This document shows positions 35,916 to 39,452 of a DNA stretch of 39,554 nucleotides, piece after piece. A model generated the notes under the pieces. That model was not told the DNA's origin, did not search any database, and was given only the letters and a program-made list of their open reading frames with translations. The DNA is taken from contig MHOT01000022.1 of assembly GCA_001820175.1 (NCBI GenBank), positions 1 to 39,554 of the forward strand, written 5' to 3'. Both the position numbers and the translations under genes were made by a program. The DNA comes from Candidatus Staskawiczbacteria bacterium RIFCSPHIGHO2_02_FULL_42_22. Its GTDB lineage: Bacteria; Patescibacteriota; Minisyncoccia; Minisyncoccales; Staskawiczbacteraceae. Each line of letters opens with the position of its first letter. Position 1 is the stretch's first letter.

Positions 35916-35997
35916 CGTCATTGCGAGGAGTTCGCAAACGACGAAGCAATCTCGTCACCATTTACTAGATTGCCACGCCTGCGGGCTCGCAATGACG
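35916..35997. repeat. CGTCATTGCGAG-family palindromic repeat
   Basis: CGTCATTGCGAGGAG...GAAGCAATCTC...TAGATTGCCACG...CTCGCAATGACG. Confidence 0.85.
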
Positions 35998-36017
35998 ACG
36001 GGTGCGTAGATTTGGTT

Positions 36018-36300
36018 TTAATACGTTATTAGCGCTAAACAACCTCTGATACTTTGTTGCGTAGTTTCTATATTTAAATCCCGACTTCCGCTATGCAAAT
36101 TTACTTTTGCGTCGCCGGTTTGAAATTGTAAGCTAATAGGATTTTTTGAAATAACATTTCTGACATATTTTAATCCGTTTCCCCTGGCCTCCGGTTCCCG
36201 GCCGGAAACAATTTCGGTAAACGCCACTTCTACCGCCCCCTTGTGATCTTTCAGTTCCGGCCTTGATAAACATGCGGGCTCCGCAATCCGCGCGCTCCGA
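36018..36300 (-). pseudogene. 5'-truncated HATPase-like C-terminal segment
   Basis: KGAVEVAFTEIVSGREPEARGNGLKYVRNVISKNPISLQFQTGDAKVNLHSG; coding runs upstream into tRNA sequence with no credible start. Confidence 0.5.
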
Positions 36301-36321
36301 AATCCTTCAAATCGCGTTATG

Positions 36322-36360
36322 TGGACCTTGCGGGAATCGAACCCGCAACCTCCTTCATTG
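36322..36360 (-). tRNA. 3' half of an interrupted tRNA
   Basis: CAATGAAGGAGGTTGCGGGTTCGATTCCCGCAAGGTCCA, directly preceded by ATCGGGA insert terminus. Confidence 0.8.
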
Positions 36361-36498
36361 TCCCGATAACTTTGGTGGACCCTGCGGGAATCGAACCCGC
36401 ATCTCCTCATTGCAAATGAGGTGTGCTGCCGTTATACCAAGGGCCCACCAAAGTTATCGAGGATCCCGTATCAATTTACCGCAGTAAATTTATCGGGA
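36361..36498 (-). other. Insert I4 in anticodon loop: TCCCGAT...ATCGGGA, contains a complete tRNA-Ala
   Basis: Outer stem TCCCGAT/ATCGGGA; arm AAATTTACTGCGGTAAATT; GGATCC arm; TAACTTTGGT/ACCAAAGTTA stem carrying tRNA-Ala. Confidence 0.8.
36376..36446 (-). tRNA. tRNA-Ala (UGC), CCA encoded
   Basis: GGGCCCT...AGGGTCCACCA; anticodon arm CCTCA-TTTGCAA-TGAGG; T-arm GCGGGTTCGATTCCCGC. Confidence 0.92.
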
Positions 36499-36609
36499 CA
36501 AATGAGGCGCTCTAGTCCCGATTCACGATGATAAAATCATCGTGAATACGAGGACCCTCGTATGGCCACGGCCAAGCCGGGCCATCGGGGCCAATTGAGC
36601 TATGGGCCC
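36499..36609 (-). tRNA. 5' part of second interrupted tRNA (exons 36591-36609 and 36499-36515; D-loop insert I3 36516-36590)
   Basis: GGGCCCATAGCTCAATTGG + CTAGAGCGCCTCATTTG split by a CCCCGAT...ATCGGGA cloverleaf. Confidence 0.8.
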
Positions 36610-36668
36610 ACCAAAATATTCCGAGGATCCTCGTATAGTAAATTCATACCATGAATTTACTATCGGGA

Positions 36669-36780
36669 CAAATGAGGTGTGTCCCGATTGCGAAATTTAC
36701 ATTAAAAATTTTGCAATACGGGATCCCGTATCAATTTACCTATGTAAATTTATCGGGGCTGCCACTATACCACAGGCCCC
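36669..36780 (-). tRNA. 5' part of first interrupted tRNA (exons 36759-36780 and 36669-36681; D-arm insert I1 36682-36758)
   Basis: GGGGCCTGTGGTATAGTGGCAG + CACACCTCATTTG split by a CCCCGAT...ATCGGGA cloverleaf; followed by I2 (36610-36668). Confidence 0.8.
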
Positions 36781-36935
36781 GGTTTTAATTTGAAATTTAC
36801 AATTTAAAATTTGAAATCAATATTTGAATTTTAAATTACTAAATTTGAAAACATGACGTCGGGTTTCAATTATTTCAAATTCATTTATTTTTTTCGCCAG
36901 CAGGCGAATTGATTTCAAATTTCAAATTGTAAATT

Positions 36936-37555: not shown

Positions 37556-37646
37556 TGGGGTGGCAGGGTTGAAACCCGCATACACGCTCGTTAAAGCGCG
37601 TCCCAGAGGTACCACTTCCTCCGGGCTCTAGTTGAGCTACACCCCC
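37556..37646 (-). tRNA. tRNA-like gene with extended variable arm (possibly tRNA-Pro)
   Basis: GGGGGTGTAGCTC...AGAGC; CCCGGAGG-AAGTGGTA-CCTCTGGG; variable hairpin ACGCGCT/AGCGTGT; GCGGGTTTCAACCCTGC; CACCCC. Confidence 0.6.
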
Positions 37647-37721: not shown

Positions 37722-37811
37722 TGGAGCCGGCAGGAATCGAACCTACAACCTCCGGAACCGCTGAAACACCCGAAAGCGGAATCCGGCGCTCTGCCAATGA
37801 GCTTCGGCCCC
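37722..37811 (-). tRNA. tRNA gene with expanded anticodon/variable region
   Basis: GGGGCCG...CGGCTCC acceptor; GCTC/GAGC D-stem; GTAGGTTCGATTCCTGC T-arm; CCGGA...TCCGG with internal CCGC/GCGG hairpin. Confidence 0.7.
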
Positions 37812-38221: not shown

Positions 38222-38540
38222 CATGATTTCTCCTTTCTTTCGATTGGCATGGACTATATCTTCATCCGTTCAACCGAACGGAGCCAACGTGTAGTCTCTA
38301 CGGGGTCATAGCGACACGAAGTGTCGCAAACAATTAACAATTGACAATTAACACTTAACCGAAAAGTTAAATGTCAAATGTTAAAAGTTAAATGTTCGCG
38401 CCCTTCGGGCGCGCTAGACTTCCCTCGGTATTGCCTTCATGCCCTCATTGTATCAAATAAGGAGCTAAGGTTCCACCGATACAGTTAGATTTTTCAGTCA
38501 CATTACTGTGAGAGGTCGCGACAAGGTGTAGTTTACACCC
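38222..38540 (-). other. Group I intron in 16S rRNA at U1498|A1499
   Basis: Core GAGACTACACG ... GAAGATATAGTCC; exon GTCGU pairs with internal GCGAC giving terminal U.G; intron ends in G. Confidence 0.85.
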
Positions 38541-38625
38541 ACGACTTAGCCCTTCTTACTGAATCTAGCTTAGGCCCATTTGCATGGAACTTCGGCTATC
38601 CCCAGCTTGCTTGGCTTGACGGGCG

Positions 38626-39452
38626 ATTATCCTCTAGAAACATAGAGTTGATGTTCCCACCGTACGAGCGGATTTCCCGCATACGGCGAGCTCTAATGCA
38701 TTTTTTGCTTAAGGTTATAAATCTTAAGCAATCCAGAATCAGTCAAATGTTCTCCCATTTTTATCTTTTTCATTATTTCACAGAACAATTTGAAGTCTTT
38801 TTGTTTAGAATTAAACTGTAGCTTGTGTTGTGTAAAAAATGGGATGATAATTTTTTCTAAATCCTCACGATTTGTTACTTCAAAACGATAACAATTTTGA
38901 TGATTTATCCGTGTATCTTTTTGAAAATACACATTACCACAACCAAAATATTTTTTAAGCTCATACAAAATATGTTTGTCTTTTTCTATAAGCTTAATGT
39001 AAAATCTTGGTTCAACTTTAACTCTTCTTGTTAGTGGGTTATGCAAAGCTGGATTTTTTACATAGGCAGTGAAGCTTCCTTCACCATCTACTAATCCAAC
39101 CACGTAATCATTAGAGAGATTCCTTCGCATAAATATAATTTATGTTTAATATGAATCAGCTGACTTCTGACGCAGCGTTAGTAGTTTCAGTATACTACGT
39201 CAGATCTCCATGGGTCAATATAGTTTCTCTTCCTGGCATTACAACAGGGTTCCTTATGATTTTTCGCTATGCTCACCGCCTCATATCATAGCTCAAATCC
39301 CCTGGTTTTTATTTGCACTGCCATTTGCCTTCAGCCCTCCGGCGTTTACCTCGCGGTAATTCGCCTGCTGTTCAGCTACGCTTCCTCGAGTCTTAACGAG
39401 AAAGGAAAAGATTTTAACTTTTTAGATACTATACCTGCCATGCGCGTTTATT
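38626..39452 (-). other. Group II-like intron in 16S rRNA at C1399|C1400
   Basis: Domain V-like CGCCGTATGCGGGAAATCCGCTCGTACGGTGGG; CAGAAGTCAGC upstream of ORF; DVI-like hairpin; ends ...AAT. Confidence 0.8.
38693..39130 (-). CDS. LAGLIDADG homing endonuclease (intron-encoded)
   Basis: 145 aa; YVVGLVDGEGSFTAYVKN; RFEVTNREDLEKIIIPFFTQHKLQFNSKQKDFKLFCEIMKKIK. Confidence 0.92.
   Translation of the reverse strand: MRRNLSNDYVVGLVDGEGSFTAYVKNPALHNPLTRRVKVEPRFYIKLIEKDKHILYELKKYFGCGNVYFQKDTRINHQNCYRFEVTNREDLEKIIIPFFTQHKLQFNSKQKDFKLFCEIMKKIKMGEHLTDSGLLKIYNLKQKMH

Follow-up and report, generated by a model that had tools for sequence, protein, structure and literature searches.

The window, a stretch of 39,554 nucleotides from Candidatus Staskawiczbacteria bacterium RIFCSPHIGHO2_02_FULL_42_22 (contig MHOT01000022.1), belongs to a metagenome-assembled genome (MAG) of 30 contigs that we label G000. 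Its minus strand carries, from 36779 down to 36321, a cluster of tRNA-Ala sequences interrupted by four inserts (I1–I4). The cluster opens with the 5′ part of the outermost tRNA-Ala, T1 (36759..36779; acceptor GGGCCTG and the start of the D-arm), which is broken in the D-loop (GGCAG^CAC) by I1, a 77-nt double-hairpin element (36682..36758) identified from its sequence, its dispersed copies, and its folding. The remaining D-arm and the 5′ half of the anticodon arm of T1 follow (CACACCTCATTTG; 36669..36681). I2 (36610..36668) then opens in the anticodon loop of T1; its left end, first hairpin, GGATCC junction, and the start of its second stem can be read from the sequence and from the direct repeat TATCGGGACAAATGAGG, and its right end is absent. 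The place expected for its second hairpin is occupied by the 5′ part of a second tRNA-Ala, T2 (36591..36609). T2 is in turn interrupted in its D-loop (TTGG^CTAG) by I3, a 75-nt element recognized by sequence and folding (36516..36590), and continues with the rest of the D-arm and the 5′ half of the anticodon arm (CTAGAGCGCCTCATTTG; 36499..36515). The last insert, I4 (36361..36498), measures 138 nt and splits the anticodon loop between G35 and C36. In its second hairpin, which reads AACTTTGGT-tRNA-Ala-ACCAAAGTT and includes a 20-nt inverted repeat (95% identity), an extended acceptor stem encloses an intact tRNA-Ala gene. The enclosed gene, T3 (36373..36446), is a tRNA-Ala(TGC) found by ARAGORN and by Rfam (RF00005, 62.4 bits). 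A single outer tRNA-Ala 3′ half closes the cluster (CAATGAAGG..GGTCCAC; 36321..36360), assigned by sequence, by joining exons, and by inspection of pairing. A first-pass annotation of this DNA had listed three inserts, and all three are real, with the junctions it quoted (I1, I3, and I4); a fourth, the unclosed I2, opens at TTTG in the first gene (from 36668). The inserts are best read as hairpin elements, one of the two readings it had offered; it had overlooked that the 138-nt insert has, as its second arm, an intact replacement tRNA gene.

ARAGORN and Rfam detected T3 alone in the cluster, and the tRNA lists for the genome contained no other complete Ala-TGC gene. When the 5′ parts of T1 were joined by script to the last 3′ half, ARAGORN recognized a tRNA-Ala(TGC), and the same was true of T2, so that the earlier claim that removing the inserts restores a tRNA stands; each joined gene has one anticodon-stem mismatch. 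The cluster contains three 5′ halves against two 3′ ends (36321-36360 and T3's own). By inspection, the last 3′ half pairs better with the acceptor of T1 (GGGCCTG/AAGGTCC, 6/7) than with that of T2 (GGGCCCA, 5/7). This better fit points to a likely nesting of T1 around I2/T2 around I4/T3, with the 3′ half of T2 and the right end of I2 missing. Since the closures of I2 and I4 would both read ATCGGGACAATGA, one event between these repeats, either a deletion or an assembly collapse, would account for the loss.

Each closed insert folds more stably than its shuffled sequences (z = -6.0 for 36682-36758, -7.8 for 36516-36590, and -8.6 for 36361-36498). The outer stem closing three hairpins that had been proposed is the lowest-energy DNA fold for 36516-36590, whereas 36682-36758 and 36361-36498 fold as two tandem hairpins; the hairpin pairs previously quoted for an 'I3' are located in the 75-nt insert and not in the 138-nt one. 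Because GGATCC is self-complementary, tandem-hairpin and cloverleaf folds are both possible.

The inserts belong to a dispersed family of palindromic elements of 42–90 nt, in which two hairpins are joined at GGATCC and the ends TCCCGAT and ATCGGGA are fixed while the sequence of the arms is free. Searching for the two ends at a gap of 30–60 nt gave seven copies in the source genome, three of them identical, and none in the control; a gap of 4–34 nt also gave seven, overlapping in part with the first set. The GGATCC core pattern had 37 strand matches in the source genome, versus five for a reversed-pattern control. Combining the end and core patterns, we count about seventeen recognizable copies in this genome, including the four of the cluster, a tally that rests on the core matches examined and sets aside several in ordinary coding sequence. 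Degraded copies are undercounted by searches that use the conserved ends and core, and few copies without the GGATCC junction were seen. A two-gap pattern was present in 12 of 148 relatives, and a stricter element pattern occurred in 14 of the 247 genomes of the order, with zero control matches. Looking for the same inserts elsewhere had been put forward as a check, and the dispersed copies, together with the empty orthologous sites described below, agree with the reading in which these are precisely inserting hairpin elements. Twenty-nine elements that we folded had a mean z of -4.1 against shuffles, and their arms differ from copy to copy yet remain hairpins; the shuffles left the ends unchanged, which weakens z for the shortest copies. 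No element with the strict pattern was found in IMG/VR, which we searched for a viral vehicle.

The insertion sites follow a rule. In each of thirty-two tabulated insertions the element has G just outside it to the left or C just outside it to the right, and half (16/32) have both. CAA stands on either side in 20/32, compared with zero to two at shifted offsets. The consensus is G^CAAT, beside a C, and target duplication was not seen; the anticodon loop of tRNA-Ala(TGC), TTTG^CAATG, fits this rule. tRNA genes or fragments host five of nineteen strict copies (two in tRNA-Pro, one each in tRNA-Val and tRNA-Ala, and one in a T-arm of uncertain identity), an enrichment of P about 3e-8 if tRNA genes are assumed to make up 0.5 per cent of the DNA. 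Detection through the conserved ends should not favour tRNA sites, although part of the enrichment may reflect tolerance of insertions in dead duplicates. Matches to ATTTGTCCCGAT..GGATCC in G302, G315, and G486 fall outside tRNA genes. Several copies share two positions within another dispersed palindrome, GTCATTGCGAG..GG^CAATCT..AGATTG^CTTCG. Palindromes of the form GTCATTGCGAG..CTCGCAATGAC, repeated landing sites of TCCCGAT elements, lie in the window at 35940-36000 on the minus strand and on contigs C1, C12, C13, and C19 of G000.

Five copies lie inside open reading frames, which we named by reading their translations, without a family search: 48 nt in a DnaG-like, 42 nt in a LeuRS-like, 48 nt in an AlaRS-like, and 66 nt in a Pif1-type helicase-like frame, and 54 nt at the start of an unnamed one. 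All five lengths are multiples of three and all five copies are free of stop codons, which argues that they are translated and not spliced. This bears on the other reading first offered for the cluster, that the inserts are a new class of small intron, without group I or group II cores, spliced from tRNA precursors. The exact restoration of the exons, the ARAGORN-recognizable joined tRNAs, and the stable inserts are what introns would produce, and a group I intron does precede another tRNA in this genome (a T-arm near position 81862 of contig C18; locus L107; Rfam, 61 bits). Across 36250-36850 Rfam gave no intron match with E values as high as 10 allowed, and with the positive controls L107 and L174 detected, which bears out the earlier observation that group I and group II cores are lacking and leaves the inserts without an intron family. 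An archaeal-type bulge-helix-bulge tRNA intron is rejected as well, since the anticodon-loop junction reads directly as a continuous stem, TTGTCCCGAT/ATCGGGACAA. Beyond this, an intact tRNA-Ala(TGC) exists, splicing cannot mend three 5′ halves with two 3′ ends, the outer copies contain stem mismatches, and the same elements occur between genes and in frame within protein genes. We reject spliced introns of any kind on these grounds and regard a new class of tRNA intron as very improbable.

Comparison with relatives reveals both empty and filled sites. The synteny with greA that flanks the locus is conserved, and a search for uninterrupted orthologues, also suggested in the first-pass annotation, found a whole tRNA-Ala after greA in five relatives (G001, G002, G005, G006, and G011). 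In two other MAGs, one assigned to Staskawiczbacteria (G010, MHPA01000023.1, the same sequence as L151) and one to Wolfebacteria (L155, JAPLZW010000104.1), a TCCCGAT element occupies the identical position and its second arm is again an intact tRNA-Ala(TGC), so that three MAGs carry the tRNA-bearing form. The arm and tRNA sequences of both differ from those of the source genome, and the D- and T-arms of their outer tRNAs contain other palindromes, CCTGCCTGCCGGCAGGCAGG and ones like it. These two were the real cases among six matches in a contig pattern scan; the remaining four (L150, L152, L153, and L154) lie outside tRNA loci and seem to be chance matches. In G012 an intact tRNA is followed by the decayed remains of an outer 3′ half, scoring 46 where shuffles reached at most 29 and four relatives 10–15; by its sequence this remnant is consistent with an inner copy having taken over. 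When we searched for Ala-in-Ala nesting without using the element ends, G000 alone was found among 380 genomes of the phylum, and with a longer gap allowed, G010 alone among 247 genomes of the order; these single genomes indicate that the tRNA-bearing form is rare. No copy of this form was seen outside tRNA genes among the genomes searched.

The filled sites also speak to whether the cluster might be an artefact of assembly, produced when copies of a repeat family were collapsed onto a single tRNA-Ala gene. The genome is a MAG in 30 contigs, motifs of 13–17 nt are repeated in the cluster, and I2 is not closed, all of which would suit a collapse. The same insertion point with a tRNA inside it in two further assemblies, with different arms and tRNAs, and the conserved greA synteny argue against it, and we consider an artefact highly unlikely for the cluster as a whole. 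Collapse is plausible for the missing right end of I2 only.

A more serious rival is local duplication or template switching, in which the palindromes would cause the resident tRNA gene to be copied into itself, without movement of any tRNA-bearing unit. The carried tRNA always has the same identity as its target, Ala in three cases and Pro in one. In the Pro case, G080 (L157, from a third family), the anticodon loop of a tRNA-Pro(TGG) holds an intact tRNA-Pro(TGG) and the ends of the insert are unrelated to those described here, which means that a nested outcome is not unique to the TCCCGAT element. In two further loci a 5′ fragment with a palindromic insert, of tRNA-Pro in L158 and of tRNA-Val in L159, is followed downstream by that tRNA in intact form. 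In G002 the sequence native to the 3′ side of tRNA-Ala (CCACCAAAATTAT) is similar to the right arm of I4, which local duplication would explain too. Against these points, the tRNA-bearing elements retain the family ends, the GGATCC junction, and the first hairpin, and, like ordinary copies, they hit the preferred G^CAAT target. We judge local duplication unlikely, though deserving of serious consideration, and favour the reading, probably correct in our view, of I1–I4 as copies of a palindromic mobile element that is non-coding and non-autonomous.

Other RNA genes near the cluster and elsewhere in the genome have unusual structures. A tRNA-Arg(CCG) on the minus strand of the window (37722-37811) is 90 nt long, and its anticodon loop appears to contain a hairpin insert of some 17 nt; a second, shorter tRNA-Arg(CCG) is present on contig C10. 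At 37556-37646, also on the minus strand, a tRNA-like sequence for which ARAGORN makes no call (GGGGGTGTAGCTCAACTAGAGC..GCCACCCCA) has a hairpin between the D- and anticodon arms. The 3′ region of the 16S rRNA (38231-39434, minus strand) appears interrupted; a LAGLIDADG open reading frame (38693-39130) lies there among weak group II matches, and 38231-38581 matches group I weakly, below the gathering score. Two tRNA-like genes of the source genome (L112, near 6518 of contig C23, and L091, C7:5401-5504) have extra hairpins in the D or variable regions, and the ARAGORN lists of this genome lack several essential tRNAs.

Some integrative elements use tRNA genes as attachment sites and restore function with the tRNA sequence that they carry. 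The tRNA-bearing form is alike in both respects, and differs in having no integrase, in carrying a whole gene instead of a 3′ fragment, in its anticodon-loop position, and in its length of about 140–200 nt. Rickettsia palindromic elements (RPEs) are likewise small dispersed palindromes without a known transposase, inserted in frame in conserved protein genes and present in RNA genes such as those for tmRNA and RNase P RNA (PMC2229807, PMC3767692). The present elements are RPE-like in being small palindromes dispersed through the genome and in frame in conserved genes, and differ from RPEs proper in length and host: RPEs are about 105–146 nt, and these are double hairpins of 42–90 nt with free arms and fixed TCCCGAT, GGATCC, and ATCGGGA. 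Unlike RPEs, they are frequent in tRNA genes and can have a tRNA gene as an arm; the papers examined do not report RPEs from tRNA genes or as carriers of a tRNA. The double-hairpin or repetitive hairpin-forming elements in mitochondria of Allomyces and sponges are also tandem hairpins that insert in RNA genes and are retained in transcripts, and those of Allomyces cause no target duplication (PMC2800124). Our folds and the empty-site comparison show both features, two tandem hairpins and no duplication, though we do not claim descent from the mitochondrial elements, from which the present ones differ in their bacterial host, conserved ends of their own, strict target base, and carried tRNA. 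REP/RAYT systems resemble them in being small dispersed hairpins, some inside genes (GTAG/CGTC families; PMC3733652). The TCCCGAT/ATCGGGA ends lack the GTAG/CGTC tag and flank none of the Y1_Tnp genes found in relatives, and membership of REP/RAYT is rejected. For tRNA genes of CPR bacteria that are nested or hold palindromes, the papers searched contained no direct match.

In the mechanism that we consider likely, a mobile element akin to RPEs and double hairpins inactivates a tRNA gene while bringing its replacement. It would land without target duplication beside a C, preferably at G^CAAT, and tRNA genes would be frequent targets. The second arm of I4, and probably that of I2, is a complete tRNA-Ala(TGC) gene whose acceptor stem is extended, and insertion in the anticodon loop would kill the resident tRNA-Ala while supplying a working copy. 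The inner tRNA is presumably transcribed with the locus and freed by normal 5′ and 3′ tRNA processing. Two rounds may have built the cluster, T1 receiving I2/T2 and T2 receiving I4/T3; the outer copies, which their sequence suggests are dead, would then have taken I1 and I3 as well, and the 3′ half of T2 and the right end of I2 would have been lost. The tRNA-bearing form may move as a single unit, perhaps by a single-strand HUH/Y1-type transposase, an enzyme suggested by the hairpins, the lack of duplication, and the one-sided target. Y1_Tnp had no match in the source genome, and none of fifteen Y1_Tnp loci in relatives has paired element ends around it. An IS-derived MITE would share terminal repeats with an autonomous transposon and would usually cause target duplication; no autonomous partner turned up among Y1_Tnp genes, the one transposase family searched, and no duplication was seen. 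Single-strand transposition, an RNA intermediate, and local template switching are possible routes, and an RNA intermediate has been suggested for the double hairpins of Allomyces (PMC2800124).

Insertion in an essential tRNA gene of which the cell has one copy should kill it. If our reading is true, an element that brings its own copy of the tRNA escapes this lethality and cannot then be removed, a form of addiction through a tRNA instead of a toxin. The essential tRNA would be replaced and not lost, and dead copies would accumulate around the live one like Russian dolls. We offer more tentatively, as a possibility short of an even chance, that this is a protein-free minimal element with a complete essential tRNA as a hairpin arm, aimed at the anticodon loop of the same tRNA, such that insertion kills and replaces the resident, makes the host dependent, and by repetition leads to nesting. 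The hairpin elements gain a clear target rule, and they offer a testable case of palindromic elements that move without a known transposase. If true, this would also account for some of the cases in Patescibacteria in which tRNAs are puzzlingly annotated as split or missing.
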